In this document: positions 1 to 27,527 of the stretch, one piece after another | Numbering within the stretch: the stretch's first letter is position 1 | Layout: each line of letters begins with the position of its first letter | Source of the DNA: Candidatus Rokuibacteriota bacterium | GTDB lineage: Bacteria; Methylomirabilota; Methylomirabilia; Rokubacteriales; CSP1-6 | DNA: 34,000 nucleotides | Direction: 5' to 3' | Assembly: GCA_003220315.1 (NCBI GenBank) | Contig: QHSA01000090.1 | Location: 1 to 34,000 of the forward strand | Made by a program: the position numbers and the translations under genes | The notes under the pieces: model-generated | Database searches by the model: none | The model's input: only the letters and a program-made list of their open reading frames with translations | Told to the model about the DNA's origin: nothing

Positions 1-359
1 AGCTTCGTGTCCTTGATGAGGCGGACGATCTCCCTCGCCTTCTCGATCGGGATCCCCTGCTGGAGCGAGATCTTCTGCTTGAGCGCCCCGCCGGAGGCCT
101 CCTCGACCTTGCCGTACGTGAGCGCCTTGAGCGGTACGCCGCGCTTGTGGAGACGCGACTGGAGGATGTCGACGACCGCCTTGAGCTTCATGTCGTCGGC
201 GCCGAGCACGGTGATCTCGTTCGCCTCGAGCCGGAGCTCGTTCTTCGAGCCCTTGAGGTCGTAGCGCGTCTCGATCTCGCGCCGCGCCTGGTCGAGGGCG
301 TTCGTGACCTCCTGCATGTCGATTTTGCATGCTATGTCGAACGAATTCTCGGCCGCCAT
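1..359 (-). CDS. yajQ: YajQ-family (DUF520) nucleotide-binding protein, C-terminus cut by the window edge
   Basis: The first 119 residues are present, opening with MAAENSFDIACKIDMQEV. This fits the YajQ/UPF0234 family, whose members begin with a short 'SFDIVSK-D--EV-NA' strand and helix. Later segments such as RYDLKGSK and a 'QGIPIEKAREIVRLIKD' stretch are also typical. Family members are small cytosolic proteins of about 160 residues with two ferredoxin-like domains; some bind cyclic di-GMP. The gene lies 35 nt downstream of lolA on the same strand, so the two are probably co-transcribed. The last 40 or so residues are outside the window. The family call is firm; whether this copy binds c-di-GMP cannot be judged here. 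Confidence 0.93.
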   Translation of the reverse strand, partial: MAAENSFDIACKIDMQEVTNALDQARREIETRYDLKGSKNELRLEANEITVLGADDMKLKAVVDILQSRLHKRGVPLKALTYGKVEEASGGALKQKISLQQGIPIEKAREIVRLIKDTK

Positions 360-394
360 TCGGGGTTTCCCCTATTGCGGGGCGTGTTTTTCCC

Positions 395-1051
395 TCATCG
401 CAGCGGCACGGTGGCGACCCCCTTCGGGGCCACGAACGTGAAGAGCCGATCGGGCAGGCTCGAGTTGATCGCGACGTTCGTGAAGCGCATCGTCACCGTG
501 TTCTCGAACTGATCGTACACGACCGCCTGCCGGATCTCCCACGTCGTCGCGTCCACGACCAGGACGAGGCGCGCGAGCGTCGGCAGCGGTTGCTTCGGGG
601 TGAGGTCGAGCACCCAGTGGCCGTCGGTATCTTGAGGTCGGGCCGGGTTTAAGAAGCGGACGCTGAACTCGGCGCGCAGGCGCCCGAGGCCCGCGAGGAA
701 GCTGCCCGCAGGTCCCGCCAGGGCCTCGGGCGCGTCGCCCACGTTGACCTGGTTCAGCGCGGGCGTGTAGACCCAGAGCTTCTTGCCGTCGGAGATGATC
801 TCCTGTGGCGTCGGCTCCTGGTACTCCCAGCGGAGCTTGCCGCCCTTCTTGAGATAGACCGTGCCCTGCGCCGGGATCGTCTGATTGAGGCTCTTGTTGA
901 ACGCCGTCTGGGTGAACTCGGCGCGGAGGTCGATCATGCGGCTGTACGTGCCCTCGAGGTCGCGGACGACGTCGTCCAGCGTCGCCGCCGGCCCGGCGGA
1001 CGGAGCCGCGAGGACGAGGCCCGCGACGACAAGGGCACGCGCGTTGCGCAT
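395..1051 (-). CDS. lolA: Outer-membrane lipoprotein carrier protein LolA
   Basis: This 218-residue protein begins with a Sec signal peptide (about residues 1-22, ending GPAA) and has no lipobox cysteine, as expected for a soluble periplasmic carrier. LolA takes lipoproteins from the LolCDE complex and ferries them to the outer membrane. Family features include the helix 'TYSRMIDLRAEFTQTAFNK', then 'QGTVYLKKGGKLRWEY', 'IISDGKKLWVYTP' and a C-terminal half-barrel ending near 'FTFVAPKGVATV'. Its length matches the family. It starts 29 nt from the divergent HAD gene and is followed by yajQ. lolA often neighbours ftsK; here ftsK lies about 9 kb away, with a strand-switching block between them. 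Confidence 0.95.
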   Translation of the reverse strand: MRNARALVVAGLVLAAPSAGPAATLDDVVRDLEGTYSRMIDLRAEFTQTAFNKSLNQTIPAQGTVYLKKGGKLRWEYQEPTPQEIISDGKKLWVYTPALNQVNVGDAPEALAGPAGSFLAGLGRLRAEFSVRFLNPARPQDTDGHWVLDLTPKQPLPTLARLVLVVDATTWEIRQAVVYDQFENTVTMRFTNVAINSSLPDRLFTFVAPKGVATVPLR

Positions 1052-1080
1052 AGAGCCACTTTACACTAGAGTCCGCGGGC

Positions 1081-1854
1081 GTGGCCGCGCCCGCGATCTT
1101 GGCCCTCGACTTCGACGGCGTGCTCTGCGACGGGATGCGCGAGTACTTCGAGTCCGCCTGGCGCGCCTACCGGCGGCTCCGTCCGGGCGCGCCGCCCCGG
1201 CCACCCGCGGGCCTCTTCGCGCGGTTCGCGCGGCTCCGGCCCCTCGTGGAGAGCGGCTGGGAGATGCCGGTCCTGATCCACGCGCTGCGCGCGGGGGCCT
1301 CCCGAGCGTCGCTCCTCCGGGACTGGCGCCCCGACGCGTGGCTCGCCGATCTCGCGGCCACGCGCGAGGCGGTCGGGGCCGCGCTCGACCGCGTGCGTGA
1401 CGAGTGGATCGCGCACGACGAGACCGGCTGGCTCGCGAGCCACGCCTTCTACCCGGGCGTGATCGAGCGGCTGCGCCGCCTCGCCGGGGGGCCGGTGCGT
1501 GTCGTCGTCGTGACCACGAAGGAGGGGCGGTTTGTGCGGACGCTCCTCGCGCGTCAGGGCCTGACGCTCGGCGACGCCGACGTCTACGGCAAGGAGGCGC
1601 GACGACCCAAGCGGACGACCCTCCTCGAGCTAGTCGCCGGCGGCGACCCGACGCGCGTCTGGTTCGTCGAAGACCGGCTTCGCACCCTCGAGGACGTCAA
1701 GCGCGAGCCGGCGCTCGCCGGGGCGAGGCTCTTCCTCGCCGCCTGGGGGTACAACACCGCCGGCGACCGCGCGACGGCGCGAAACGACGGGCGCATCGTC
1801 CTGCTCACGCTCGCGCGGTTCGCGCGGACCTTGTCGGCGTGGGTCACCTATTGA
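1081..1854 (+). CDS. HAD-superfamily hydrolase
   Basis: This 257-residue protein has a GTG start. It carries the HAD phosphatase motifs in order: motif I LALDFDGVLCDG (nucleophile D10, acid/base D12), motif II VVVVTTKEG (T145/T146), a motif III lysine (K171 or K177 in GKEARRPK), and motif IV as FVEDR (E197, D198). The helical cap of about 100 residues between motifs I and II is larger than in minimal HADs. It is probably a cytosolic phosphatase; the substrate is not readable from sequence. The gene runs divergently from lolA across only 29 nt. Its stop codon lies inside the -35 element of the next promoter. Confidence 0.85.
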   Translation: MAAPAILALDFDGVLCDGMREYFESAWRAYRRLRPGAPPRPPAGLFARFARLRPLVESGWEMPVLIHALRAGASRASLLRDWRPDAWLADLAATREAVGAALDRVRDEWIAHDETGWLASHAFYPGVIERLRRLAGGPVRVVVVTTKEGRFVRTLLARQGLTLGDADVYGKEARRPKRTTLLELVAGGDPTRVWFVEDRLRTLEDVKREPALAGARLFLAAWGYNTAGDRATARNDGRIVLLTLARFARTLSAWVTY

Positions 1855-1879
1855 CAGCGATGCGTCCGCGCCCTACGAT
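1851..1879 (+). promoter_or_regulatory. Canonical sigma-70 promoter
   Basis: A perfect TTGACA -35 (1851-1856) is followed by a 17-nt spacer and TACGAT as -10 (1874-1879). The -35 overlaps the HAD stop codon. Transcription would start near 1886, giving a leader of about 50 nt before the ATG at 1935. This is the closest match to the housekeeping consensus that I found in this GC-rich window. Confidence 0.7.
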
Positions 1880-1934
1880 CCCGCTCCGTAATGGTTGGGG
1901 CCGTCACGGTAACGCACCGAAAGGAGATCCCCCG

Positions 1935-2045
1935 ATGAAACGGCTGCTGCTCTCACTGCTGACCACGGGTGTCGTGCTGGTCGCCTCGGCGCCCGGCGCC
2001 ACCGCGAACGACGGGTTCACGAACGCCGACGTTCGAGGCCCTTAA
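1935..2045 (+). CDS. 36-residue secreted peptide, or truncated remnant of a small secreted protein
   Basis: The ATG follows an ideal Shine-Dalgarno AAGGAGAT (1921-1928) at 6-nt spacing and sits behind a near-consensus promoter. The product is a clear Sec signal peptide (MKRLLLSLL, a hydrophobic core, then APGATA) and a 12-residue tail NDGFTNADVRGP before TAA. Just after the stop, another frame reads NPGFAVRGVSVKQ and ends at 2087-2089, which looks like the C-terminus of a secreted protein. The simplest reading is an internally deleted and frameshifted gene whose expression signals survive. A genuine exported micropeptide is the alternative. I recognise no function. The match of the tail to a protein C-terminus is an impression, not a proven homology. 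Confidence 0.5.
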   Translation: MKRLLLSLLTTGVVLVASAPGATANDGFTNADVRGP

Positions 2046-2103
2046 CGAATCCCGGGTTCGCGGTCCGGGGCGTCTCCGTGAAGCAGTAGGCGCGGCTCGC
2101 GCG

Positions 2104-2346
2104 ATGGACGCTCGGCGCCTGACGCGGCGCTCCTTCCTCGGCGGCGGCCTCGCGGCGCTCTTCTGGATCTCCTTCGCGACGCTGACGGGCCTCCCGGCGA
2201 CGACCGCACCCATCGGACTCACGCGCGACGGGTTGCCCGTGGGCGTTCAGATCGTGGGGCCGTACCTCGAGGACGCGACGCCGATCGACGTCGCCGGGCG
2301 GCTCGCGGAGGTGATCGGCGGCTTCACGCCCCCGAAGGGATTCTGA
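2104..2346 (+). pseudogene. Amidase C-terminal remnant joined to a Tat-type signal
   Basis: The 80-residue reading frame starts with a twin-arginine signal (MDARRLTRRSFLGGGLAAL, motif TRRSFLG). At about residue 20 it jumps into the extreme C-terminus of an amidase-signature enzyme: LTGLPATTAPIGLTRDGLPV, then GVQIVGPYLEDAT. Amidases of this family are usually 450-500 residues with a Ser-cisSer-Lys triad; that core is missing entirely. The simplest explanation is a large internal deletion of a Tat-exported amidase, or a fusion of two fragments. There is no convincing Shine-Dalgarno. The stop lies 6 nt from the end of the convergent ABC binding-protein gene. Confidence 0.75.
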
Positions 2347-2352
2347 CGCGCG

Positions 2353-3879
2353 CTACCGGCCGACGGTCATCTCCGACACGATCAGCCGGTAGTCGGGGCG
2401 CGCCTTGAACTGGAGACGCTTCGCCACGCCGTAGACCACGACCTCCTGGAACAGCTCGAGCCAGGGCTTCTCCTCGTGGATGATCTGCGTCGCCTCGGCG
2501 TAGAGCTGCTTGCGCTTCGCCGGATCGAGCGAGTAGCGCGCCTGCTCCATGAGCTCATGGAAGCGCTGACCCGGCTGGTTCCCCGCCCAGTACTTGCCGC
2601 CGAAGCCGTTCGGGTGGAACAGGCGCCAGAGCGAGCCGTCGGCGTCGAGGAGTGTGGACTGCGGGTTGATGAGCATCAGGCTGTTCGGCGGCAGGGTGCG
2701 CTCGTTGTTCATCCGCTGGCGGGCGCCCATCTCCATCATCTCGACCCGCGCGCGGATGCCCACCTTCGCCCACCTGTCGGCGATCGCCTCGAGGAGGAAC
2801 TTGTCGTTCACCATGGTGCCGCTGCCCGCGTAGAGGGTCACGTCGATGCCGCCGGCGCGCCCGGCCTGGGCGAGGAGCCGCTTCGCCGTCGCCGGGTCGT
2901 AGGGATACGGCTTGAGCGCCGGGTTGTAGCCGAAGTCGGTGTCGGCGAGACCGCCACTCATGGGCCTTCCCATCCCGGCGTACAGGCTCTTGACGAGGCC
3001 GTCGACGTCGAGCGCCAGGTGAAGCGCCTGGCGCACGCGCGTGTCGGAGAGCGGCGGCTGGGTGGCGTTGATCCAGAAGGTGACCGTGCGTGTCGCGGCG
3101 GTCGAGACGATCTTCGTGCTCTGGCCCTCGGCCAGCGCCTTCAGGCGGTCGGGCGGGACGTTGGTGATGATGTCGGCCTCGCCCTTCTCGAGTGCCACGA
3201 TGCGGGGGAAGTCGTCGGGGATCGGCTTCCAGACCACCCGGTCGATCGCGGGCGGCCGGCCCTCCCAGCCCCACCAGTCGCGGTTGGCTTCCATCACGAG
3301 CCGCTCGTCCTTCACCCACTCGACGAACCGGTACGCGCCCGTGCCCACCGGCCGTCGCGCAAGCTCCTTCACCCCCTCGTCGGTCGTCAGGCGCGCCGGG
3401 AGGATCTGGGCGCCCATCTGGGCCAGGCGCACGAGGAGCAGGGGGTCGGGCTTCTTCGTCACGATGCGGACGGTCGTCGGGGTGACGGCCTGGATGGACT
3501 CGATCGTCGCGAACCCCGCCTGGACGACGGTCTTGCCGGGCAGCAGATTGCGCTCGAGCGTCGCCTTGACGTCCTCCGCCGTGAGCGGCGAGCCGTCGTG
3601 GAACTTCACCCCCGGGCGGAGCGTGAGCTCCCAGGTCGTGTCGTTCAGGTTCCGCCACGACGTCGCGAGCCCGGGCTGGAGGCGGAGCGCGGCGTCCCAC
3701 CGCGTGAGCGTGTCGTAGAGGTTGACGAAGTAGTTGACGGTCAGCACCTGCGTGCTGCGGCCGGGATCCATCGTCGTCGCCTCGGCCGGCGGGGCGATCG
3801 TGATCTGCACGGGCTCCGCGTGCGCCGCCGACACGAGCACGGCCAGCACGAGCGCGGCGACCCCCAGCGGGCGCGTCAT
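2353..3879 (-). CDS. ABC transporter substrate-binding protein, family 5 (peptide/nickel type)
   Basis: This 508-residue protein has a Sec signal peptide (cleavage after about residue 21, SAAHA-EPV) and the full family 5 (SBP_bac_5) architecture. Family marks are 'LYDTLTRWD', 'WELTLRPGVKFHDGSPLTAEDV' (here split for length), 'GTGAYRFVEW' and 'VRQALHLALDVDGLV'. Such proteins capture oligopeptides, nickel chelates or sugars in the periplasm for an ABC importer. No permease or ATPase gene is adjacent, so it is an orphan here. The start has a GGGAGGA ribosome site (in 3886-3892, minus strand) and a TATACT -10-like hexamer at 3899-3904. The ligand cannot be named. Confidence 0.92.
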   Translation of the reverse strand: MTRPLGVAALVLAVLVSAAHAEPVQITIAPPAEATTMDPGRSTQVLTVNYFVNLYDTLTRWDAALRLQPGLATSWRNLNDTTWELTLRPGVKFHDGSPLTAEDVKATLERNLLPGKTVVQAGFATIESIQAVTPTTVRIVTKKPDPLLLVRLAQMGAQILPARLTTDEGVKELARRPVGTGAYRFVEWVKDERLVMEANRDWWGWEGRPPAIDRVVWKPIPDDFPRIVALEKGEADIITNVPPDRLKALAEGQSTKIVSTAATRTVTFWINATQPPLSDTRVRQALHLALDVDGLVKSLYAGMGRPMSGGLADTDFGYNPALKPYPYDPATAKRLLAQAGRAGGIDVTLYAGSGTMVNDKFLLEAIADRWAKVGIRARVEMMEMGARQRMNNERTLPPNSLMLINPQSTLLDADGSLWRLFHPNGFGGKYWAGNQPGQRFHELMEQARYSLDPAKRKQLYAEATQIIHEEKPWLELFQEVVVYGVAKRLQFKARPDYRLIVSEMTVGR

Positions 3880-3929
3880 CGACGGTCCTCCCGGCGGGAG
3901 TATAGCGCGGGCCGTGATAGCGTACGGTC

Positions 3930-4889
3930 ATGGTCGGTGGGTCGCGTGCGGTCGTGGCTCTGGCACTCGGGGGGTGGCTCATGGGGAGCGCCGCGTGGGC
4001 GGCCGAGAAGACCGTCGTCGTGCTCGGGACCGCGACGCCGGGCGGGGGATTCCCCGTCTACGGCGCGGCCGTTGCCGACATCATCAACGAGACTGACCCG
4101 ACGCTCGCGGTCCAGACGCGGAACACCAAAGGCAGCACCGAGAACGTCCCGCTCCTCGAGGCGGGGCAACTCGACCTCGCCCTCGTCCAGGGCGAGGTCG
4201 TCCACGAGGCCCTCACCGGCGTCGGCCGGTCGCCGGCGAATCTCATGATCCTGGCGGCCATGTACTCCACGCCGGGCATGTTCGTCGTCCGCGCCGACAG
4301 CCCGTACCGCGCGATCGCCGACCTCCGCGGCAAGCCCGTCGCCTTCGGCGCACGGGGCTCTGGGCTCGTCATTCTCGCCCGCTACGTCCTCGACGGCCTC
4401 GGGTTCGATCAGGAGCGCGACTTCCAGGCCGTCTACCTCGACCGCGCCGGCGACGGCCCCGCCATGGTGCTCGACGGGCGCGTGGCGGCGCTCTGGGGCG
4501 GCGGTCTCGGCTGGCCCGGGTTCAGCGCGGTCGCGCAGGGGCCCGCGGGCGCGCGGTTTCTCGCACCCGACGCCGACGGGATCAGGCGCATCTTGGCGAC
4601 ACACGCGTTTCTCAAGCCGATGAGCGTCCCCGCCGGCGCGTACCCGGGGCTCGACGCTCCCCTCGCGTCGGTCGGCTCGTGGAGCTTCATCATGGCGCGT
4701 CCCACCCTCGCCGACGACGTCGCGTATCGCCTGGCCCGCGCGCTCCACCGCGGCGCGGAGGCCCTGGCCAGGCGCCTGCCTCAGGCGCGCGAGACGACGG
4801 CGACGAATACGATCGCTGCCGCTCCGCGCGGGGACCTCGTCCACCCCGGTGTCCTGCGCTACCTGCGCGAGATCGGAATCGCACGCTGA
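3930..4889 (+). CDS. TAXI-family TRAP transporter solute-binding protein
   Basis: This 319-residue secreted protein has a signal peptide ending near residue 25 (SAAWA-AEK). It follows the TAXI pattern: 'LGTATPGGGFPVYGAAVADI', then 'TKGSTENVPLLEAGQLDLAL', 'FVVRADSPYRAIADLRGKPV' and 'FGARGSGLV'. TAXI proteins bind organic acids or amino acids for fused DctQM-type TRAP permeases driven by ion gradients. No permease gene is nearby. It diverges from the ABC binding protein across 50 nt, so the two orphan receptors probably share a promoter region. The family call is secure; the ligand is unknown. Confidence 0.92.
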   Translation: MVGGSRAVVALALGGWLMGSAAWAAEKTVVVLGTATPGGGFPVYGAAVADIINETDPTLAVQTRNTKGSTENVPLLEAGQLDLALVQGEVVHEALTGVGRSPANLMILAAMYSTPGMFVVRADSPYRAIADLRGKPVAFGARGSGLVILARYVLDGLGFDQERDFQAVYLDRAGDGPAMVLDGRVAALWGGGLGWPGFSAVAQGPAGARFLAPDADGIRRILATHAFLKPMSVPAGAYPGLDAPLASVGSWSFIMARPTLADDVAYRLARALHRGAEALARRLPQARETTATNTIAAAPRGDLVHPGVLRYLREIGIAR

Positions 4890-4947
4890 CACGGGCGCGC
4901 CTGCCCACGGCCCAGGACGCCATGCCGACCACGCGCCGCCGCGTTAC

Positions 4948-5295
4948 TCACGCATGGCGAGGACCAAACATGATGACAAACATCCCGGCGACGGCCAACG
5001 CCGAACCCGCAATGTCCCACGTATCGGGACGCACGCCATCCGCGAGCCGGAGCCACAACAGGGCGGTCGCAACGTAGACCCCGCCATACGCCGCATAGGT
5101 CCGACCCGCCGCGACCGGATGAAGCGAAAGCAACCAGACGAAGAGGGCGAGACTCGCCGCAGACGGAAGAAGAACCACGAGTGGCGCTCGATCCTTGAGC
5201 CAAAGATACGGCAGGTAGCAGCCAACGATCTCGGCGACCGCGGTCACACAGAGAAGGAGCAAGGTCACCACCGGATGCATCGGCACTCCGTTCAT
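4948..5295 (-). CDS. ynfA: YnfA-family (UPF0060) small membrane protein
   Basis: This 115-residue protein has four predicted membrane helices (roughly residues 8-27, 37-55, 67-85 and 93-111). Family signatures include '[18 protein letters not shown]' and '[18 protein letters not shown]'. E. coli YnfA has 108 residues and resembles small multidrug resistance (SMR) transporters; its physiological role is poorly defined. The ATG overlaps the stop of the NTF2-like gene upstream in an ATGA, so translation is coupled and this start is preferred over the internal methionine at residue 6. The gene converges with the TAXI gene with 58 nt between them. Confidence 0.93.
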
Positions 5296-5642
5296 TTTCT
5301 GATCTCCATGTGCCTGATCAAGCCGTCCCGTATCGTAGAGACGTGCTGGACCATCTGGTCCGCCACCGTATTCCCTGACCGGTCACGGATGACCTGATGG
5401 ACATCGACAACGATCCTTCCGGTCTCATCGATTCCGAAGCGTCGCGGTTCGACACGGGGATCGATCAGACGCCACTGTCGGGTCCAGTAGTCGCGCACGG
5501 CGCCGTGGCCGTGGACGTACCCGCCTTCCATCCCGTTCGGCCAGTCCACCTCGGCATGCATTGCCGCCAACGCCCTGTCGATGTCGCGCGCATTGAAGGC
5601 GTCGGACGCGTTCGCGAGCAGGTCGCGGTCCACCGTCCACAC
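5292..5642 (-). CDS. NTF2-like (SnoaL-type) protein
   Basis: With the GTG start the product has 116 residues: '[20 protein letters not shown]', '[13 protein letters not shown]', '[20 protein letters not shown]' and the terminal strand '[13 protein letters not shown]'. This is the cone-shaped NTF2/SnoaL fold found in small hydrolases, isomerases and binding proteins of unknown substrate. The frame stays open upstream, but that part is antisense to the sigma-factor gene and does not resemble the fold, so I exclude it. No Shine-Dalgarno precedes the start. GTG codons at 5642 and 5648 are both possible. It is translationally coupled to ynfA; I know of no established functional link between the two families. 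Confidence 0.8.
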
Positions 5643-5657
5643 ACCCACGATACCGGC

Positions 5658-5687
5658 ATCATAGTTGCGCGCCGCACAGGTCCGCAA
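5658..5687 (-). promoter_or_regulatory. Possible sigma-70 promoter of the NTF2-ynfA pair
   Basis: On the minus strand TTGCGG (5687-5682) is followed by 18 nt and TATGAT (5663-5658). The -10 has one mismatch to TATAAT; the -35 keeps only the TTG. Transcription would begin near 5651, just before the GTG codons at 5648 and 5642, so the mRNA would be nearly leaderless. That agrees with the lack of a Shine-Dalgarno. Confidence 0.4.
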
Positions 5688-5733
5688 CGTGTGGCCGGAC
5701 CGATCCACGCGACAATCGAATTTAGGTCGGTGG

Positions 5734-5761
5734 GGAACCCGGCGCGGGCGGTATGGTCTAA
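5734..5761 (+). promoter_or_regulatory. ECF-type promoter of the sigma/anti-sigma operon
   Basis: GGAACCC (5734-5740), a 15-nt spacer and GTCTAA (5756-5761) followed by CC match the RpoE-like ECF class (GGAACTT / GTCTAA). The same arrangement with the same spacer occurs before the DUF4139 gene at 7300-7327. I noticed no third copy in the window. It predicts autoregulation by the sigma factor just downstream. Confidence 0.75.
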
Positions 5762-5765
5762 CCTG

Positions 5766-6323
5766 ATGGAGGGGAGGACCAGTGATGACTCCCACCTGGT
5801 GGACCGGCTCCGGCGGGGCGACGCGCGGGCCTTCGACGAGCTCGTGACCGCGTACCAGCACCGGGTCTTCTCGGTGGCCCTCAGGATGCTGCGCAACCGG
5901 ACCGAGGCGGAGGAGGTCGCGCAGGAGGTGTTCCTACGAGTGTACCGGACCGTCGCCGCGTTCCGGGGCGACGCGAAGCTCTCGACCTGGCTCTACGCGA
6001 TCGCGTCGCGTCTGTGTCTCAATCGCCTGGCGTCAAGCGACCGGCGGGTGACGCGGGAGGGCGACGAGACGCTGACGCGCCTCGCGAGCGGCGACGCCAC
6101 CCCTGTCGACGAGCTGGAGCGAAGCGAGCTGGAGGCGACGCTGCACCGCGCGATCGCCGAGCTCCCAGAGGAGCGGCGGATCGTGGTCGTGCTCCGTGAC
6201 CTCGAGGGCCTCTCGTACGAGGAGATCGCGGCGGCGCTCGACCTGGAGCTCGGCACGGTGAGGTCGAGACTCCACCGCGCCCGGATGGACCTCAAGGAGA
6301 AGCTGGAGCGGTTCCTGCCATGA
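5766..6323 (+). CDS. ECF (group IV) RNA polymerase sigma factor
   Basis: This 185-residue protein has the two-domain ECF layout. Region 2 (about residues 20-85) contains 'FDELVTAYQHRVFSVALRML' and 'AEEVAQEVFLRVYR'. Region 4 (about 125-180) contains 'LPEERRIVVVLRDLEGLSYE' and the helix-turn-helix 'GTVRSRLHRAR'. It would direct RNA polymerase to a small stress regulon and be held inactive by the membrane anti-sigma factor, whose ATG overlaps this stop (ATGA). The frame stays open upstream, but that part is antisense to the NTF2 gene and is rejected. The predicted transcription start falls at about this ATG, so the mRNA may be leaderless; no upstream Shine-Dalgarno is seen. Confidence 0.93.
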   Translation: MEGRTSDDSHLVDRLRRGDARAFDELVTAYQHRVFSVALRMLRNRTEAEEVAQEVFLRVYRTVAAFRGDAKLSTWLYAIASRLCLNRLASSDRRVTREGDETLTRLASGDATPVDELERSELEATLHRAIAELPEERRIVVVLRDLEGLSYEEIAAALDLELGTVRSRLHRARMDLKEKLERFLP

Positions 6324-7267
6324 CCTGCGACGAGGCGCGCGCGCGCCTTTCGGCTCTGCTGGACGAGGCGCTCGGCCCTGACGAGCGCGGCCCACTCGAG
6401 GCCCATGTGGCGACGTGCGTCGACTGCCGCCGCGAGCTCGGGTTGCTCAGGAACACGGTCGCCCTCCTGCAGTCGGTGAACCCGGTGCGCGCGCCGGCGG
6501 GCTTCGCCGATCGCGTGCTCGCGGCCGCGCGCCCCGCGCCCTGGTACCGGCGTCTCCAGCGCGCGCTCTCGCTCCCCTGGTCGGTGAAACTCCCGCTCGC
6601 GGCCGCGGCGGCCCTGCTCGTCGGCGTAGCGGTCGCCCACCTCCTCGAGATGGCGCCCGAGCTCCAGCGAGCCGCACGTGTCGAGTCCCCGAGCCCCGCA
6701 GTCACGGAATCTCAAGAGCCACCGGCCACACCGACCGGGGCGCCAGGCCAGAAGGCCAAGGCCGAGTCCGAGCCCGCGACGAGGGAGCGTCGCGAGGGGC
6801 GTGCCAGAGACCTCGCCGACGAGGCGACCGACGCGACGCGACGGCGCGACCTCGCCAAAGCCGCGCCAGCCCCGGCGCCCGCGACGGCGCCGGAGCGCAA
6901 GGCGGAGTCCGCGGTGGGCGCTGCGGCGCCGGCGCGCGAACCAGCGAGGGAAGGCGCCAGACCCGACGCGGCGACCTCGCGACGCTCTGCGCTCCGCACG
7001 GCGGCCGCGGCCGACGTCTCCGGCCGCCTGGTCGTGACGGACCGCGAGGCGGCCGCGCGCGGGCTCACGGAGCTCGTGGCGAGGACCGGGGGCGCGGAGG
7101 TCGCCAAAAGCGCGGGGGCCGACGCGATGGTGATCGAGCTCACGATCCCCCGCGCGGCCTGGAGCGAGTTCACGCGCGAGCTGGCGGCGCTCGGCGCGTG
7201 GACGCCGGACCGCGAGCCCGCCGAGCTTCCCGCCCAGGTCCGCGTCGCGCTTCGGATTACCGAGTAG
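6320..7267 (+). CDS. Transmembrane zinc-binding anti-sigma factor with periplasmic sensor domain
   Basis: This 315-residue protein has an N-terminal ZAS/zf-HC2 domain with zinc ligands C3, H29, C33 and C36 (HVATCVDC). One membrane helix lies at about residues 90-108. A long Ala/Pro/Arg/Glu-rich linker (about 112-230) leads to a folded C-terminal domain (about 233-315). The N-domain should bind the sigma factor in the cytoplasm. The C-terminal domain, with GRLVVTDREAAARGL, TGGAEVAKS and LTIPRAAWSEFTRELAALG, resembles the DUF4349-type domain ('GG-v--s', then 'l-iP---f---l--LG'); that is by eye only. Presumably it senses an envelope signal. It is translationally coupled to the sigma gene. The sensor ligand is unknown. 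Confidence 0.88.
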   Translation: MTCDEARARLSALLDEALGPDERGPLEAHVATCVDCRRELGLLRNTVALLQSVNPVRAPAGFADRVLAAARPAPWYRRLQRALSLPWSVKLPLAAAAALLVGVAVAHLLEMAPELQRAARVESPSPAVTESQEPPATPTGAPGQKAKAESEPATRERREGRARDLADEATDATRRRDLAKAAPAPAPATAPERKAESAVGAAAPAREPAREGARPDAATSRRSALRTAAAADVSGRLVVTDREAAARGLTELVARTGGAEVAKSAGADAMVIELTIPRAAWSEFTRELAALGAWTPDREPAELPAQVRVALRITE

Positions 7268-7299
7268 CGCCCTTCCGGAAACGCGCGCCCACGCGCTCG

Positions 7300-7327
7300 G
7301 GAACTTCCCCGGTGCTCCCCTGTCTAA
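7300..7327 (+). promoter_or_regulatory. ECF-type promoter of the DUF4139 gene
   Basis: GGAACTT (7300-7306), a 15-nt spacer and GTCTAA (7322-7327) followed by CC form an exact match to the RpoE-like ECF consensus, with the same spacer as the promoter at 5734-5761. Transcription should start near 7334, leaving a leader of about 87 nt before the ATG at 7421. The rest of the 153-nt gap after the anti-sigma gene shows no other clear element. Confidence 0.8.
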
Positions 7328-7420
7328 CCGGACAGACGCCGACGCCGGCGGGACGCAGGGCGAGCCCCAGCTCGAGCCCCCGCCGTGCGAGGCGAGCGAA
7401 CACACGGGGAGGAACGACCG

Positions 7421-8836
7421 ATGCGGACGCGACCGATCGCCCTGACGCTGCTCGTGCTGTTCGCCACCACCGAGGCCCCCGCTCGGGCGGCCACCCCTCG
7501 GAGCGTCACGCACGAGGACCAGCGCGACGTGATGGTGACGATCTACAACGGGAACCTCGGCCTCGTGAAAGACGTGCGCGAAGCGCGCTTCCCGGCCGGG
7601 ACGACCGAGGTGCAGTTCACGGAGGTCGCCGCCCGGATCGATCCGACGACCGTCCACCTCAAGTCGCTGACCGATCCGGCCGGCCTCCGAATCCTCGAGC
7701 AGAACTACGAGTACGACCTCTTGACGAGCCAGAAGCTCATGGAGAAGTACGTCGGCAAGAAGGTCCGGCTCTATCAGGGCGACGGCACGTACCACGAGGC
7801 GACCCTGCTCTCCACCAACGGGCCGATCTTCGAGATCAACGGCCAGATCCACATGGGTCAGTACGGGCGCCTCGTGCTGCCCGCGCTCCCGGAGAACCTC
7901 GTCGCCCAGCCGACGCTCGTCTGGCTTCTCCGCAACCAGGCGCCCCGCCCCCAGCGGGTCGAGGCGTCCTATCTCACCGGCGGTATCACGTGGAAGGCGG
8001 ATTACGTGATGGTCCTCAACGCCGCCGACACGCTCTCCGACCTCACGGGCTGGGTCACGATCGACAACCAGAGCGGCGCGACGTATAAGGACGCCGCGCT
8101 CAAGCTCGTCGCGGGGGACGTGAACCGCGCGCGCGACCCACGGCGTGAGGCGCGGATGCTGGATCTCGCCGCGAAGGCGGCATCGGTCGCCGAGGCTTCG
8201 CGCGACTTCCAGTCCGAGGGGTTCTTCGAGTACCACCTCTACACGCTCGACGGGCGGACGACGATCAAGGACAACCAGACCAAGCAGCTCGCGCTCCTGA
8301 CGTCGGACGAGGTCCCCGTCACGAAGCAGCTCATCTACTACGGCGCTCAGGACTACTATCGGAACGCCTACGGTGTGCCCATTTCGAACCAGAAGGTCGC
8401 GGTCTACCTGGAGCTCCGGAACAGCAAGGAACACCGGCTCGGCGTCCCGCTGCCGAAGGGGAAGATCCGCGTCTACAAGGCGGATCGGTCAGGCAGCCAG
8501 CAATTCATCGGCGAGGACTGGATCGACCACACCCCCAAGGACGAGCGACTGCGCATCAAGATGGGCGACGCCTTCGACCTCGTCGGCAGCCGTACCCAGA
8601 GGGACTGGAAGAGGCTCGCCTCGAACCTCTGGGAGGTCGAGTGGGAGATCACGCTCCGCAATCACAAGTCGGAGGCGCAGACGGTGACGGTCGTCGAGCC
8701 GGTTCCGGGTGACTGGCAGATCCTCGCCTCGAGCCACCCCGGGGAGAAAGTCGAGGCCCACACGCTGCGCTACACGATCACCGTCCCGAAGGACGGCGCC
8801 ACCACGCTCACCTACCGGGTCCGCATCCGCGCCTAG
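7421..8836 (+). CDS. Secreted DUF4139-domain protein, predicted ECF regulon member
   Basis: This 471-residue protein has a Sec signal peptide (to about residue 25, PARA-ATPRS) and no membrane anchor. It then has a beta-rich domain ('VMVTIYNGNLGLVKDVREAR') and the DUF4139 region: 'YLTGGITWKADYVMVLN', 'DLTGWVTIDNQSGATYKDA', 'ALKLVAGDVNR' and a terminal beta-sandwich ending 'TLTYRVRIRA'. DUF4139 proteins are periplasmic or surface proteins of largely unknown function. The ATG is chosen for its GGGGAGGA ribosome site (within 7407-7413); an upstream in-frame GTG lacks one. An ECF promoter lies about 90 nt upstream, so it is probably the effector of the neighbouring sigma factor. Confidence 0.88.
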   Translation: MRTRPIALTLLVLFATTEAPARAATPRSVTHEDQRDVMVTIYNGNLGLVKDVREARFPAGTTEVQFTEVAARIDPTTVHLKSLTDPAGLRILEQNYEYDLLTSQKLMEKYVGKKVRLYQGDGTYHEATLLSTNGPIFEINGQIHMGQYGRLVLPALPENLVAQPTLVWLLRNQAPRPQRVEASYLTGGITWKADYVMVLNAADTLSDLTGWVTIDNQSGATYKDAALKLVAGDVNRARDPRREARMLDLAAKAASVAEASRDFQSEGFFEYHLYTLDGRTTIKDNQTKQLALLTSDEVPVTKQLIYYGAQDYYRNAYGVPISNQKVAVYLELRNSKEHRLGVPLPKGKIRVYKADRSGSQQFIGEDWIDHTPKDERLRIKMGDAFDLVGSRTQRDWKRLASNLWEVEWEITLRNHKSEAQTVTVVEPVPGDWQILASSHPGEKVEAHTLRYTITVPKDGATTLTYRVRIRA

Positions 8837-8883
8837 CACGAATTTCCTTGGCGCGGCGACCGCGTGGCGGTCAAATAGGGCCC

Positions 8884-9405
8884 GTGGAGTGGCTGTCGAC
8901 GGAGGAAATCGTCCTCGCCTTTACGACGCTGGTCGCCTCGGGCCTCCTCATCCTCGGAACCCTGAAGCTCGTCCGGCCGCCTCGCCCGAAGAGCGCGCCG
9001 CCCCGCGGCGGAGTCACGCCGCGCGTCGCCATCGCCGCGCCGTCGGTGCGGCCCGAGCGTCCGAGGACGCGCCAACTTCCGGAAGACCGCGCCGCGATCG
9101 CGCGCCGCCTCGGGCGGACGCTTCTGGACCGGGCGGTCCAGGAGTCGGAGCCCGGGCGGCGCCGCACGCTGATCTACCGGGCGATCGCCTGTCTCAACCG
9201 CGGCGTCGAGGCCGCGCCCGACGATGAGCCCCTCCGGGACACGCTCACCGCGGCTCACGCGGCCCTGTGGAACACCTATCAGCAGATCGGGCTGGAGCGT
9301 CTCGCCCAGGAGATGCCGTGGCGGGCGACGGCGCTCGCCCCCGCCGAGCCACCCCCAGGATCGGTCGCGCGGGCGACGCCCGCGCTCGAACGGCGGTCGG
9401 TCTGA
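8884..9405 (+). CDS. Small membrane-anchored protein of unknown function
   Basis: I prefer the GTG giving 173 residues (MEWLSTEEIVLAFTTLVASG); a TTG 36 nt upstream is the alternative. One N-terminal membrane helix (about residues 7-27) is followed by a Pro/Arg-rich linker. A helical region (about 65-150: 'RAAIARRLGRTLLDRAVQES', 'IYRAIACLNRGVEAAPDD', 'AAHAALWNTYQQIGLERLA') looks like a pair of TPR-type helical hairpins. I recognise no named family. It follows the DUF4139 gene by 47 nt on the same strand, so it may belong to the same ECF-controlled transcript. Its stop is 20 nt from the convergent gene at 9426. Confidence 0.65.
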   Translation: MEWLSTEEIVLAFTTLVASGLLILGTLKLVRPPRPKSAPPRGGVTPRVAIAAPSVRPERPRTRQLPEDRAAIARRLGRTLLDRAVQESEPGRRRTLIYRAIACLNRGVEAAPDDEPLRDTLTAAHAALWNTYQQIGLERLAQEMPWRATALAPAEPPPGSVARATPALERRSV

Positions 9406-9425
9406 GGCGCCACAACCTATAGAGG

Positions 9426-9950
9426 TCAGTCGCCGGGCACGCCGAGCCTGCGCAGCTGGTGGCGCATCATGGGCCGGTTGGCGTCGTCCCTCTGCGTGAG
9501 CAGGACGTCGCCCGGCGGTGACGCCACGCCGCTCCGCGGATCGATCACCTCCCGCGTGAGCACCTCGCACGCCGCCGCCTCGGGGCCGACCTCCCCCTGG
9601 CGCTCCACGACGAGACGCCCGGTGCCGTCCACGGACCACGCGGTCGGCGCCGCCCGGGAGAGCAGGGCGCGGTAGAGCGCGGGCGTGATCCGCGTCTTCG
9701 ACGTCACGTGGCGCATCGTGGCGTTCGCGGAGAAGACGTAGCGCTGGTACGGGTAGAAGTACGGATCGCTCCGGTCCACGCGCGCCGGGGCCACCACGGC
9801 GAAGCGGATGACCTCCCAGGTCCCGACGAGATCCGCGGTCGCGCAGGGGCGGAGGACGTCCTTCGCCTCCTGCGCGACGGCCGACGTGGCGTCGAGCCAC
9901 GCCAGAACGGTGAGCGCCCGGAGGAGCGAGCGGGCGCGCGCGCCGGTCAC
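9426..9950 (-). CDS. Unknown secreted protein coupled to ftsK
   Basis: This 174-residue protein begins at a GTG that overlaps the ftsK stop in a GTGA, the junction style used throughout this strand. Residues 1-27 look like a signal peptide (hydrophobic LLRALTVLAWL, then SAVAQ). The mature part has 'DLVGTWEVIRFAVV', 'FYPYQRYVFSANATMRHVTS', 'GTGRLVVERQGEVG' and 'MMRHQLRRLG'. The opening 'LVGTWEV' and the strand pattern recall lipocalin-like small beta-barrels, but I cannot assign a family. The frame continues upstream inside ftsK; that part is a shadow. It is the last gene of the long minus-strand run. Confidence 0.7.
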   Translation of the reverse strand: MTGARARSLLRALTVLAWLDATSAVAQEAKDVLRPCATADLVGTWEVIRFAVVAPARVDRSDPYFYPYQRYVFSANATMRHVTSKTRITPALYRALLSRAAPTAWSVDGTGRLVVERQGEVGPEAAACEVLTREVIDPRSGVASPPGDVLLTQRDDANRPMMRHQLRRLGVPGD

Positions 9951-12130
9951 TTCCCGCGCTTGGCGAGATACTCGGGGCCGACCAGGATTTCGCGGGGCTT
10001 CGCGCCGTCGCCGGGACCGATGACCCGATCCTGCTCCATCATGTCGATGAAGCGGGCGGCCTTCGGGTAGCCCAGCCGCATGCGGCGCTGCAGAAACGAG
10101 ATCGACGCCTGGCGCTGGCCCACGACGAGGTGCACGGCGTCCCAGTAGAGGTCGTCGCGCTCGGCCGACTCCCCCTCCGCCGTCTCCTCCTCGGTCGGCA
10201 ACACGACCTCCTCGTAGACCGCGGTGCCTTGCGTCTTGAGGAAGTCGCAGATCGCCCGGACCTCCTCGTCGGCCACCCACGCGCCGTGTACGCGCATCTG
10301 CCTGTTCGTCCCCGGCGGGACGAAAATCATGTCCCCGCGTCCCAAGAGTTGTTCGGCTCCGTTTCCGTCCAGCACGGTCCGCGAATCCACCTTGGACGCG
10401 ACCTGGAAGGCGATCCGCGTCGGGAAGTTCGCCTTGATGAGCCCCGTGACGACGTCCACGGACGGCCGCTGGGTCGCGATGATCAGGTGGATGCCGACGG
10501 CGCGGGCGATCTGCGCGAGCCTCACGACCGAGGTCTGCACCTCGCCCGCGGAGGCCATCATGAGGTCGGCGAGCTCGTCGACGACGACGATCCAGCACGG
10601 CAGCCGCTCCTCGGCGGGGACCGCCTTGTTGTAGCCCTCGATCGAGCGGACCTGGCGGGCCTGGAGCAGCTTGTAGCGCTCGTCCATCTTCCCGACGATC
10701 CAGCGGAGCCGCGCCGCCGCCTCCTTCGCGTCCGTCACGACGGGCGCCAGGAGGTGCGGGATGCCCTCGTAGACCGAGAGCTCGAGCCGCTTGGGGTCGA
10801 TCAGGAGGAAGCGCACGTCGGCCGGCGTCGCCTTGTAGAGGATCGAGCAGATCATCGCGTTGAGCCCGACCGACTTGCCGCTCCCCGTCGCGCCGGCCAC
10901 GAGCAGGTGCGGCATCGCCGTGAGGTCGGCGACGACGGGCAGGCCGGTCACGTCCTTGCCGAGCGCCAGCGGCAGCCGCCCCTTCGACTCGGCGAACTCC
11001 GCGGAGACGAAGATCTCGCGGAGGTAGACGGTGGCGGCCTCCCCGTTCGGGACCTCGATGGCCACGGTGCCGCGGCCGGGGATCGGCCCGACGATCCGCA
11101 CCGAGGCCGACTTGAGCGCGAGCCCCAGGTCATCCGCCAGGTTGACGACCTGGCTCACTTTGATACCCGGAGCGGGCTCGAACTCGTACGACGTGATGAT
11201 GGGGCCGGGGCTCACCTGGACGATGCGCCCTTCCACCTCGAAGTCCTGGAGCTTCCGCCGGAGCGTCTCGGCATTGTCCTGGAGCTCCTCGCGGGTGCGC
11301 CGGAGCTCGGTGGCCGGGGGCGCCTGGAGGAGCCCGACCGGGGGGAGCTGGAACGACTCGGCTCCGCCCGTGCCGAAGTCGAAAGTCTCCTGCCACGCGA
11401 GCCCCTGCTCGGCCAGGCGCCCGCGCGGGGACCTGGGCTCGACGACGAGGGGCGGCGCCACGACCTCGGGCAGCGCCTCGGCGACCGTCGCGGCCGCCGA
11501 GACACCGGCCATTCGCGCCGGCGCCGCCGTGCGCGCGGCCACGGGTGCGCGTCGCAGCTCGGCGAGCCGCGCCGAGGTCACGCGCACGACCGCGGCGTAG
11601 GAGATGCGGGTGACGAAGAGCACCCCCACGGGCAGCGCGACCAGGAGGACGAGCCACGCGCCGAGGTTGCCGACGCCCGTGCGGAGGGCCGTGCTGACCG
11701 CCCAGCCCACGAGGCCGCCGGCGATCGTCGCGTTGCGCTCCGCGGCGCCGTGGGACAAGGCGCTCGACGCCTGCGCGACGAGCCCCGCCGCGCTCACGAG
11801 GAGCACGGCGAGCCCGGTGAACGGCAGGACACCGCGCGTCACGGGCGGCCGCACGAACGCCGAGGCTCCCCAGGCCCCGAGCAGGAGCGGGAAGAGAAAG
11901 CCCGCGTACCCGAAGGACTGGAAGGCGGCCCAGCCGAGCCACACGCCGACGGGGCCCACCGGGCTCTGCTGCCCGGCGGGCGGTCGCGAGGGATCGAACG
12001 TCGCGAGCGCGATCAGACCGAACCCGGCGATCGCGAGTGCCAGGATCCCCTTGACCTCGCTGAGCCAGCGGTCGGTCCGGGGGCGGCTTCTCCGCGGGGG
12101 TCGGTCGCCGCTCGAGGCGAGGGTCGCCAT
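9947..12130 (-). CDS. ftsK: DNA translocase FtsK/SpoIIIE
   Basis: This 727-residue protein pumps DNA at the division septum and helps resolve chromosome dimers. The N-terminus has four or five membrane helices (about residues 28-195), then a short linker instead of the long Pro/Gln-rich one of E. coli. The motor has Walker A GATGSGKSVGLNAM (about residue 411) and Walker B WIVVVDELADLMM (about 515), with 'LIIATQRPSVDVVTGLIKAN' after it. The C-terminal gamma winged helix (about 660-715, 'ISFLQRRMRLGYPKAARFID') recognises oriented KOPS-type sequences. Its ATG overlaps the RNase J stop by one base (TGATG), and its stop overlaps the next gene by 4 nt. Confidence 0.96.
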   Translation of the reverse strand: MATLASSGDRPPRRSRPRTDRWLSEVKGILALAIAGFGLIALATFDPSRPPAGQQSPVGPVGVWLGWAAFQSFGYAGFLFPLLLGAWGASAFVRPPVTRGVLPFTGLAVLLVSAAGLVAQASSALSHGAAERNATIAGGLVGWAVSTALRTGVGNLGAWLVLLVALPVGVLFVTRISYAAVVRVTSARLAELRRAPVAARTAAPARMAGVSAAATVAEALPEVVAPPLVVEPRSPRGRLAEQGLAWQETFDFGTGGAESFQLPPVGLLQAPPATELRRTREELQDNAETLRRKLQDFEVEGRIVQVSPGPIITSYEFEPAPGIKVSQVVNLADDLGLALKSASVRIVGPIPGRGTVAIEVPNGEAATVYLREIFVSAEFAESKGRLPLALGKDVTGLPVVADLTAMPHLLVAGATGSGKSVGLNAMICSILYKATPADVRFLLIDPKRLELSVYEGIPHLLAPVVTDAKEAAARLRWIVGKMDERYKLLQARQVRSIEGYNKAVPAEERLPCWIVVVDELADLMMASAGEVQTSVVRLAQIARAVGIHLIIATQRPSVDVVTGLIKANFPTRIAFQVASKVDSRTVLDGNGAEQLLGRGDMIFVPPGTNRQMRVHGAWVADEEVRAICDFLKTQGTAVYEEVVLPTEEETAEGESAERDDLYWDAVHLVVGQRQASISFLQRRMRLGYPKAARFIDMMEQDRVIGPGDGAKPREILVGPEYLAKRGK

Positions 12131-13800
12131 CAGACCTCCAGGATGATCGGGAGCACCACGGGCTTGCGACGAAACCGCTGGTTGACGAAGTGCCGGACCG
12201 CCGTGCGCACGCGCGCCCCGACGGTCTCGCGGTCGAACGCGCCCTCGGTGTCTCCCTCGGCGACCGCCGCCAGGACCACGGCCCGGAGCTCCTCGAGCAG
12301 CGCCTCGTTCTCCTTGACGTACACGAAGCCGCGCGAGGCGATCGCGGGCCCGGCGACGACGGCGCCCGCGCGGTTCACGGCGACCGAGACCGCGATCAGG
12401 CCGTCCTCGGCGAGGAGCTGGCGGTCGCGGAGCACGACGGCGCCGATCTCGCCGACGGACTTGCCGTCGACGAGGACGCGGCCGGCCGGGAAGCCGCCGA
12501 CGACGCGCGCGGTCGTCTTCGTCACCTCCACGCCGGTCCCGTCCTCGATCAGGAGGATCTGGTCCGGCTCGAGGCCGACCGACTCGGCGAGCCGCGCGTG
12601 GCCGAGCAGGTGTCGGTACTCGCCGTGCACCGGGATGAAGTAGCGCGGACGCGTGAGGTTCAGCATCAGCTTCAGGTCCTCTTGGCTCGCGTGGCCGGAG
12701 ACGTGGACGAAGGCGTTGTCCTCGTAGAGGACCTCGGCGCCCAGGCGATACAGGGCGTTGACCACGCGGCCGATCGTCCGCTCGTTGCCCGGGATCACGC
12801 GCGCCGAGATGATCACGAGGTCGCCGGGCTGCACCTGCACGTACTTGTGCTCGGCCGCGGCCATGAGCGCGAGCGCCGAGTTGGGCTCGCCCTGGCTCCC
12901 CGTCGAGAGGATCACCTGGCGCGCGGGCTCGAGCGAGGCGAGCTCCTCGAGCGGCACCAGGAGGTCGGCCGGGACCCCGAGGTAGCCGAGCTCGGCGGCG
13001 ATCGCGACGTTCTTCTGCATGCTCATGCCGAGGAGCGCGACCCGCCGCCCCTGGGTCGCGGCGAGCGTGAGGACCTGCTGGATCCGGTGGATGTGCGACG
13101 CGAAGGTCGCGACGATGATGCGCCCGGGCGCGCGCGCAAACCGCTCCGCGAGCGCCCGCCCGACCTCCACCTCCGAGCGCGTGTGGCCGGGCCGGTCGAC
13201 GTTCGTGGAGTCGGAGCAGAGCACGAGCACGCCCTCGGCGCCGAGCTCGGCGAACCGCCGGTAGTCGGGCGTCTCGCCGTCGAGCGGGCTCGGATCGAGC
13301 TTGAAGTCTCCCGTGTGCACGAGCGTGCCGACCGGCGTCCCGATCGCGAGGCCGACGCCGTCCGCGATCGAGTGCGTGACACGGATCGGCTCGACGATGA
13401 ACGGGCCGATCTCGATGCGGTCGCGCGGCCGGATCGCCCGAAGATCGGCACCCTCGTCGAGCCCGTGCTCGCGGAGCCGCTCGGCGACCAGCGCGAGCGT
13501 CAGCGGCGTGCCGAAGACGGGTACGCGCGCCTGCCCGAGCAGGTAGGGCAGCGCGCCGATATGGTCCTCGTGGCCGTGGGTCAGGAAGACGGCGCGGAAG
13601 CCGTCCCGCTTGGCGAGCGCGTAGGTGAAGTCGGGGATCACGCGGTCGATGCCGGGCAATTCGTCGGCGTCGGGGAACATGAGCCCGCAGTCGACCGCGA
13701 TGAGATCGTCGCCGGACTCGACGAGCATCATGTTGAGGCCGATCTCGCCGAGCCCGCCCAGGGGGATCAGCCGGACGGTCGGCTCGCTCAGAGGCTCCAC
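12130..13800 (-). CDS. rnj: Ribonuclease J
   Basis: This 556-residue metallo-beta-lactamase/beta-CASP nuclease has both endonuclease and 5'-3' exonuclease activity in the family and takes part in mRNA decay and rRNA maturation. The zinc site is HGHEDH (H75, H77, D79, H80), with further ligands around 'RVTHSI' and 'VHTGDFKLD'. The beta-CASP part has 'ILSTGSQGEPNSAL', and 'HVSGHASQEDLKLML' is diagnostic of RNase J. The C-terminal domain ends 'NQRFRRKPVVLPIILEV'. The GTG start follows AAAGGAG (13806-13812, minus strand) at good spacing. The 90-nt gap upstream suggests its own promoter, with a TACCAT -10-like hexamer at 13828-13833. Confidence 0.96.
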   Translation of the reverse strand: MEPLSEPTVRLIPLGGLGEIGLNMMLVESGDDLIAVDCGLMFPDADELPGIDRVIPDFTYALAKRDGFRAVFLTHGHEDHIGALPYLLGQARVPVFGTPLTLALVAERLREHGLDEGADLRAIRPRDRIEIGPFIVEPIRVTHSIADGVGLAIGTPVGTLVHTGDFKLDPSPLDGETPDYRRFAELGAEGVLVLCSDSTNVDRPGHTRSEVEVGRALAERFARAPGRIIVATFASHIHRIQQVLTLAATQGRRVALLGMSMQKNVAIAAELGYLGVPADLLVPLEELASLEPARQVILSTGSQGEPNSALALMAAAEHKYVQVQPGDLVIISARVIPGNERTIGRVVNALYRLGAEVLYEDNAFVHVSGHASQEDLKLMLNLTRPRYFIPVHGEYRHLLGHARLAESVGLEPDQILLIEDGTGVEVTKTTARVVGGFPAGRVLVDGKSVGEIGAVVLRDRQLLAEDGLIAVSVAVNRAGAVVAGPAIASRGFVYVKENEALLEELRAVVLAAVAEGDTEGAFDRETVGARVRTAVRHFVNQRFRRKPVVLPIILEV

Positions 13801-13890
13801 GGAGACTCCTTTCGGTCGAGCGGCTCTATGGTAGCACCGGGGTGAGCGGGCCGGAACTTCCTCGGGGCGTCGACGCCCCGCTCCGAGGCT
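13801..13890 (-). other. Gap between M23 peptidase and RNase J with a perfect palindrome
   Basis: The gap holds an 18-nt perfect palindrome centred on GTCGAC (13863-13880). Flanking CCTC/GAGG extends it into a bulged hairpin. There is no T-run after it on the minus strand, so it is not a standard intrinsic terminator. Downstream lie a weak -10-like TACCAT (13828-13833) and the rnj Shine-Dalgarno. It may be an attenuator, an mRNA-stabilising hairpin or a rho-assisted stop. Confidence 0.4.
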
Positions 13891-15141: not shown

Positions 15142-15923
15142 AGCCGGCGCGCGAGCCCTGCAAACTCAAGAATTGTGAGGGTTTCCGCCCGCCGGCCGGG
15201 GTCGACCCCAGCCGTTGTGGTCGCCTTCCGGACCACCTCAAGCGGCAGGCCCAGGCCGGCGGCCAGCGCGTTCGCGAGCGTCTTGCGCCGCTGCGCGAAC
15301 GCGGCGCGGACGACCGCGTGAAAGCGGCGCTCGTCCGCCAGGGGGACGCACGGCCCGGGGCGGACGCGCAGGTGCAAGACCGCCGACTCCACCTCGGGCG
15401 GCGGGCGGAACGCGCCCGGCGGGACGCGGAGCGCGACGCGCACGTCGCAGTAGAGCTGGGTGAGGACCGAGAGGCTGCCGTACGTCTTGCTGCCCGGCGG
15501 CGCCGCCACGCGCTCGGCAACCTCGCGCTGGAGCATGAGGGCCATCTCGTCGATGGCGGTCCGGGCGGCGATCAGCGCCGCCAGGATCGGCTTCCCGACG
15601 CTGTACGGCAGATTCCCGACGACGAGCGCGCGCCCGCCGGGGGGACGCGCGAGCGCGCCGTAGTCCCACGCGCGCGCGTCGGCCTCGACCACCTCGACCG
15701 ACGGAATGCGGGCGCGCAGCCGCGCGACGAGCCCGCGATCGATCTCGAGGGCGACGACGCGGCCGGCGCGGCCCGCGAGCTCGCCCGTGAGCGCGCCCTC
15801 GCCGGGGCCGATCTCGACGACGAGGTCCCCCCGCGCGGGCGCGACGAGGTCGACGATCGCGCGGGCGACCCCGGCGTCGCGGAGGAAGTGCTGGCCGAGC
15901 GCGCGCCGCCTAGTCGCGTGCAC
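15138..15923 (-). CDS. rsmA: 16S rRNA (adenine1518/1519-N6)-dimethyltransferase
   Basis: This 261-residue KsgA/RsmA enzyme uses S-adenosylmethionine to dimethylate two adenines near the 3' end of 16S rRNA during late 30S assembly. The family start 'RRALGQHFLRD' is followed by SAM motif I 'VVEIGPGEGALT', the acidic residue in 'ALEIDRGL', and catalytic motif IV 'VVGNLPYSVGKPI'. The C-terminal helical domain contains 'AFRPPPEVESAVLHL' and 'FAQRRKTLANAL'. The length is normal. The GTG start lies 14 nt inside the end of coaE, the longest overlap of this strand. Confidence 0.96.
   Translation of the reverse strand: MHATRRRALGQHFLRDAGVARAIVDLVAPARGDLVVEIGPGEGALTGELAGRAGRVVALEIDRGLVARLRARIPSVEVVEADARAWDYGALARPPGGRALVVGNLPYSVGKPILAALIAARTAIDEMALMLQREVAERVAAPPGSKTYGSLSVLTQLYCDVRVALRVPPGAFRPPPEVESAVLHLRVRPGPCVPLADERRFHAVVRAAFAQRRKTLANALAAGLGLPLEVVRKATTTAGVDPGRRAETLTILEFAGLARRL

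Positions 15924-20076: not shown

Positions 20077-20080
<4 letters not shown>
19187..20080 (-). CDS. DUF429 protein, predicted RNase H-like nuclease
   Basis: This protein has 297 residues from the GTG that overlaps the glnE stop (GTGA). It begins a strand with GSVLGIDVGYSA, the first acidic motif of the RNase H-like fold, followed by 'VELSAVAIDGPL', 'IVEAFPNLFLGVL' and 'CLDDHEEVASFVCALTALSV'. The last matches the DUF429 pattern of acidic residues before a 'DA--CA-TA' helix. A nuclease role is predicted for the family from its fold, but the substrate is unknown. It sits between glnE and polA with 4-nt overlaps on both sides. I am fairly sure of the family, less so of any activity. Confidence 0.75.
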
Positions 20081-25289
<5,209 letters not shown>

Positions 25290-25293
<4 letters not shown>

Positions 25294-27482: not shown

Positions 27483-27527
27483 CCCCAGCCGCGCACCCGG
27501 GACGGCCCGGCGGCCCGCGCCGCCCGG

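Follow-up and report, generated by a model that had tools for sequence, protein, structure and literature searches.

A 36-codon signal-peptide frame in a Rokubacteria-type genome is very probably the remnant of a gene for a 141-residue exported protein, left inside a collapsed gene cluster

Deletional processes have been described that clear young pseudogenes from bacterial genomes (Kuo and Ochman, 2010; PMC2916853). The locus described below resembles such pseudogenes in that a disrupted gene appears to be under deletional removal while its relatives are either intact or fully lost. It differs in that three closely spaced deletions have spared the ends of two genes, and in that it lies in an uncultured Rokubacteria-type draft genome and not in Salmonella. 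Searches of the literature on Rokubacteria genomes, pseudogenes, deletional bias and gene remnants returned no title on this locus among the matches listed, and the word pseudogene was not found in the available part of PMC5712423.

Two protein families are the nearest points of comparison. The first is represented by an uncharacterised exported protein of 141 aa that Candidatus Rokubacteria bacterium 13_1_40CM_69_27 encodes (MNEF01000107.1, locus L079; genome G015 below). The short frame studied here shares with it 78% identity at the N-terminus, a common C-terminal end and the same type of ribosome site, but the MNEF01000107.1 protein is full length and the copy studied here is not. The neighbours also differ, since the MNEF01000107.1 gene has a pyridoxal-phosphate enzyme (PF00291) upstream and a molybdopterin oxidoreductase (PF00174) downstream. 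The second is the amidase family PF01425, of which the stretch at 2104-2346 matches 37 positions near the end of the profile, but in contrast to amidases of this family it lacks the catalytic region. Taken together, the comparisons given below make it very probable that the 36 codons are what is left at the front of a gene encoding a 141-aa exported protein, the middle of which was deleted, and that this remnant lies within a gene cluster that has collapsed by ordinary decay. All coordinates refer to the window, i.e., the whole stretch of 34,000 nt that was analysed, and the features of the locus are collected in Table 1.

Table 1. Features of the locus, with window coordinates and the evidence for each assignment.
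Feature	Position	Strand	Evidence
HAD-like hydrolase gene, GTG start, flanking	1081..1854	+	PF00702, E 1.7e-7; collinear in G002, G003 and G006
Sigma-70-like promoter, TTGACA-N17-TACGAT	1851..1879	+	10/12 consensus bases
Ribosome-binding site, AAGGAGAT	1921..1928	+	sequence
N-terminal remnant of the gene for a 141-aa exported protein (predicted barrel)	1935..2045	+	36 codons; 75%/78% identity to G033/G015
Deletion junction	2042..2045	+	alignment to G015; about 268 nt missing; position uncertain by one or two bases
C-terminal remnant of this gene, TNPGFAVRGVSVKQ and stop, out of frame	2045..2089	+	DNA identity to G015/G033
14-nt seam at the place of the G001 ABC operon	2090..2103	+	comparison with G001
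N-terminal remnant of the amidase, MDARRLTRRSFLGGGLAAL, judged Tat-like by eye	2104..2160	+	comparison with G001
Amidase C-terminal remnant, last 62 codons including stop from 2161, in-frame fusion	2157..2346	+	PF01425, NF004816, identity to G001/G003
SBP_bac_5 binding protein, flanking	2353..3879	-	its region directly after the HAD region in G002

The preliminary description of this DNA had reported a near-consensus promoter and a ribosome-binding site ahead of a secreted peptide of 36 residues, and both signals and the frame could indeed be located. The promoter-like site, with its -35 and -10 hexamers at 1851-1856 and 1874-1879, had the top score of the three sites that passed the scan thresholds in the whole window. 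Two of these were found in positions 1-17000 and one in 17001-34000, compared to shuffle means of 0.4 and 0.3, the scan having been run as two halves so that a site across 17000/17001 would escape it. Exact TTGACA/TATAAT pairs with a spacer of 15-19 nt were absent from the 34,000-nt window. The -35 hexamer overlaps the TGA stop codon (1852-1854) of the upstream HAD-like gene. Ahead of the intact gene of G015, TCGACA-N18-CATAAT reached a score equal to that of the window's promoter-like site, and it sits at the end of an upstream gene other than the window's. Another gene lies upstream in G015, and in G001, a genome of the same genus as the window's, the upstream gene falls beyond the contig end, so that neither genome offers a counterpart for judging inheritance of the promoter-like site. 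The ribosome-binding site was probably inherited, as similar sites are present in G015 (AAAGGAGGTCCGCAATG) and in G033 (AAAAGGAGGTCCTCAATG). An Rfam search of positions 1700-2500 gave no match at gathering thresholds.

The frame starts with ATG at 1935 and ends with TAA at 2043-2045. Its start is signal-peptide-like as judged by eye, with KR, a hydrophobic run and AxA before NDGFTNADVRGP, in line with the secreted product described earlier. When the 36-aa sequence was used as a query, it aligned with residues 1-37 of 141-aa proteins of G015 (E 3.5e-10) and G033 (E 1.0e-9), both of which belong to the family of the window's genome. Matches of this strength to the beginning of a longer protein elsewhere show that the frame is not a product of chance. 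In this search of 60 genomes, including the window's own, 17 had a match at E ≤ 1, and the strong matches were those of G015, G033 and the window itself. With the 141-aa protein as a query, 8 of 57 genomes of the family matched at E ≤ 0.001, and in the window residues 1-51 were covered with one TAA inside. A seven-row profile matched 9 of the 95 genomes of the class at 11 places, six of which are full length, one is open without a stop (a distant member in G044), one is cut by the contig end (G001) and three are broken, namely the window copy, G035:C334 and G074:C32. A scan of contigs in 291 stretches, which may omit the window's genome, confirmed only one record, that of G015. In the window's own genome, a 98.13% complete draft, the stub was the only family match and an intact copy could not be found.

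The two other broken members can be described briefly. G035:C334 (L028, minus strand, about 1457-1677) has two internal gaps compared with the gene of G064 and apparently ATA at the start-codon position, and in G074:C32 (L030, minus strand) the N-terminal and C-terminal parts lie in different frames.

The distribution of the family bears on whether the short frame might be a functional exported micropeptide, in which case the truncated form would have persisted through some use of the signal peptide itself or of the 12 residues left once signal peptidase has cut. Intact promoter-like and ribosome sites and a frame that is undamaged as far as the junction would also fit such a peptide. However, among the 11 matched places in the 95 class genomes only the window copy stops at this position, and 17 of the 20 weak matches, those for which a locus was available, show no NADVRGP-like continuation. 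A conserved short form was found neither in the matches of the 59 other genomes searched with the 36-aa query nor in those of the 94 others searched with the profile, although the window stub itself passes the profile search at E 8.8e-4 only, so that diverged stubs may fall below the thresholds. With the short form confined to the window among the copies found in the class, nothing points to selection for a product of 36 aa. The neighbouring amidase has lost its core as well, and in the full-length model the retained part of the frame amounts to no more than the signal-like helix and another helix of four residues (see below). A functional micropeptide, which the preliminary description had offered as one of two readings, is therefore unsupported and most unlikely.

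The second end of the gene likewise supports the remnant reading. Downstream of the stop codon, an out-of-frame sequence ending ...NPGFAVRGVSVKQ (GFAVRGVSVKQ) and closed by TAG at 2087-2089 corresponds to the C-terminal end DPGVVVRGVAVKQ of the 141-aa proteins of G015 and G033, both of which terminate in ...IGTDPGVVVRGVAVKQ. At the DNA level, positions 2049-2093 are 84% identical to G015 and to G033. Aligned with the 426-nt gene of G015, the 155 nt from 1935 to 2089 match about 110 nt at its start and about 45 nt at its end, and the missing length of about 268 nt takes into account that the signal peptides differ by one codon. This length is not a multiple of three, which explains the TAA after 36 codons. 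The C-terminal island (2046-2089) aligned with G015 at a score of 52, whereas the maximum among 2000 shuffles was 27 and none of them reached 52. The same-genus copy in G001 gave a weak score of 27, the highest among 1000 shuffles being 24. The C-terminal end of the window copy is thus nearer to the copies of other genera than to that of G001, and orthology with the G001 gene therefore rests mostly on position. An ancestral short gene, extended in the long relatives through fusion or insertion, would not have a C-terminal end sitting out of frame at the junction; nothing was seen in favour of this idea, and on account of the C-terminal island we reject it and give it practically no chance. The other reading of the preliminary description, a secreted protein that was recently shortened and of which GFAVRGVSVKQ may be the old C-terminus, is supported by these data, as longer homologues with both the N-terminus and the RGVSVKQ end exist in G015 and G033, with the word recently resting on a small sample.

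Neither Pfam nor NCBIfam placed the full-length protein in a family with the E limit set at 0.1, and Pfam searches with seven members at E up to 1 gave weak matches only (best E 0.031). An AlphaFold2 model from the seven-row family alignment (mean pLDDT 83.7, pTM 0.70) shows eight strands preceded by a signal-like helix and a further, short helix, so that the full-length family protein is predicted to consist of a signal-like helix and an eight-stranded barrel. The helix of residues 4-18 lies in a low-confidence stretch with block means of 56 and 51. Foldseek with the full-length model gave no match at E ≤ 0.001, and no named fold family is claimed for this reason. In VIA-align the best match was a designed barrel (Z 14.7, rmsd 2.2, 110 aligned residues), and quinohemoprotein amine dehydrogenase and OmpA were both found at Z 13.8. 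These comparisons agree with a small barrel of eight strands but single out no family, calycin- and avidin-like folds being among those considered. The best sequence match to a solved structure, a beta-1,3-glucosyltransferase (E 0.012), was not used. According to the model, the window frame would encode only the part preceding the first strand, and the last strand is retained out of frame. As the barrel strands are gone from the frame, the gene has presumably lost its function.

The surroundings of the frame were compared with those in other genomes. On contig C52 of G001 (7,803 nt), the C-terminal end of the family gene is followed by a 3.5-kb ABC operon of an SBP_bac_5 binding protein and two BPD_transp_1 permeases, a 517-aa amidase, a binding-protein gene on the minus strand and a TAXI gene. 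The order in the window is the same with the middle missing, and the minus-strand SBP and TAXI genes are common to both. From the start of the family gene to the stop of the amidase, the distance is about 5.5 kb in G001 vs 412 nt in the window; the G001 total assumes a family gene of 426 nt, as C52 starts inside the family gene and its N-terminal end and upstream gene lie beyond the contig. Relocation of the operon elsewhere in the genome was rejected on the basis of the G001 binding protein, whose best counterpart in the window's own genome, out of 14 matches at E ≤ 1e-40, reached only 42% identity. In G002, a genome given as 100% complete, the whole block is absent and the SBP region comes right after the HAD region, 2 nt separating the two aligned blocks. 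The sequence TTCTGA at this seam equals the last bases of the window amidase and weakly suggests that the block was once present in G002. In G003, the amidase is open from the contig start for 335 codons and the SBP gene after it is missing. On this contig (G003:C4, L092), at about 1000-1080, a short stretch resembling the 3' end of the missing SBP gene remains between amidase and TAXI. Judged from these contigs, the block is variable and the window represents a partly erased state, with the present, collapsed and absent states all seen among genus-mates.

An assembly artefact, in which strains or repeats were wrongly joined to create the junctions, would be conceivable in a draft of 301 contigs, especially as contigs of genus-mates end nearby (G001:C52 inside the family gene, G003:C429 in the HAD gene and G003:C4 inside the amidase). 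Against this, the pieces keep the order and orientation of G001 and all missing stretches lie between one piece and the next, an artefact would need to bridge islands of about 45-60 nt more than once, the flanks are collinear with G002 and G001, and G002 is also without the block. A wrong assembly is thus considered very unlikely.

The amidase is reduced in the same manner as the barrel gene. The 517-aa protein of G001 matches PF01425 over positions 1-442 and has a Tat-like start in common with the window remnant. The remnant matches PF01425 positions 406-442 of 445 (E 1.4e-7; 31.4 bits, passing the curated cut-off of 27) and positions 429-489 of 493 in NF004816 (PRK06170), the best NCBIfam model, at E 6.8e-21 and far below the cut-off of that model. 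It is 83% identical to G001 and 92% to G003. Compared with G001, 1,311 nt, a multiple of three, are missing, and GCTC is present at both edges of this segment in G001 and at 2157-2160 in the window. GGSTGGGAAALAAG and TVKDT, present in the G001 amidase, are absent from the remnant, as is the AAGGAG ribosome site of the G001 gene. We take GGSTGGG and TVKDT of G001 to be Ser/Lys catalytic-region motifs of the amidase. In the 62 retained codons, six of the window are private relative to G001 and G003 (five synonymous and one Ile-to-Val exchange), compared to three in G003 and eight in G001, each with one that is not synonymous. With the caution due to small numbers, the codon pattern is like that of intact copies and fits a recent loss, i.e., the remnant does not yet look relaxed. 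The shortened-gene account in the preliminary description thus holds for the barrel gene; the amidase shell and the missing operon had gone unremarked there.

Combining these results, the most probable course would be as follows. A deletion of about 268 nt in this lineage may have taken out almost all of the barrel-coding part and given rise to the TAA, with the last 14 codons surviving out of frame. The cluster of barrel gene, ABC operon and amidase would have collapsed with at least two further deletions, of the operon and of the amidase core, in an order and number that we infer from the present arrangement, and the losses might have occurred via illegitimate recombination or slippage. The remaining promoter-like and ribosome sites may still yield an exported 12-residue stub, which would be without a fold and should therefore do nothing. 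Strong expression signals before a tiny frame can thus mark a deletion and not a micropeptide, and caution is advised in naming signal-peptide-plus-stub frames in draft genomes micropeptides. The locus also provides a small case of gene-cluster loss in uncultured bacteria.

A more general idea is that gene loss here proceeds by repeated interior deletion that spares the start and stop ends and leaves gene shells. The cases are the barrel gene and the amidase in the window and G035:C334, and perhaps the short end traces in G002 and G003. This generalization is considered unlikely; a real bias of this kind would suggest either a distinctive mechanism of deletion or selection acting on the parts left behind.

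Some further observations were made in the window. In G006, which belongs to another genus, an inverted-repeat element occupies the gap between the HAD and SBP genes, and positions 33497-33616 of the window are 84% alike to this gap (L033, 2305-2426). The element at 33450-33650 has 43-nt inverted-repeat arms that are 84% complementary and 78 nt apart, and it was found at at least 20 further places in the same genome at E ≤ 1e-4, self-matches excluded, with 40 of 66 candidates scored. It looks like a MITE- or REP-like repeat. Within the stretch collinear with G002, about 840 nt (4890-5732) are without a match; they contain a YnfA/UPF0060 gene (4948-5295, minus strand) and a SnoaL_2-like frame (5295-5642, minus strand). 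At 27512-27522, about 1.1 kb are extra in G002 in otherwise collinear DNA, and perhaps one gene is missing from the window's genome. At 9937-9963, about 970 nt are extra in G002, and the matching blocks overlap by 27 nt in the window, which suggests a short repeat at the edge.
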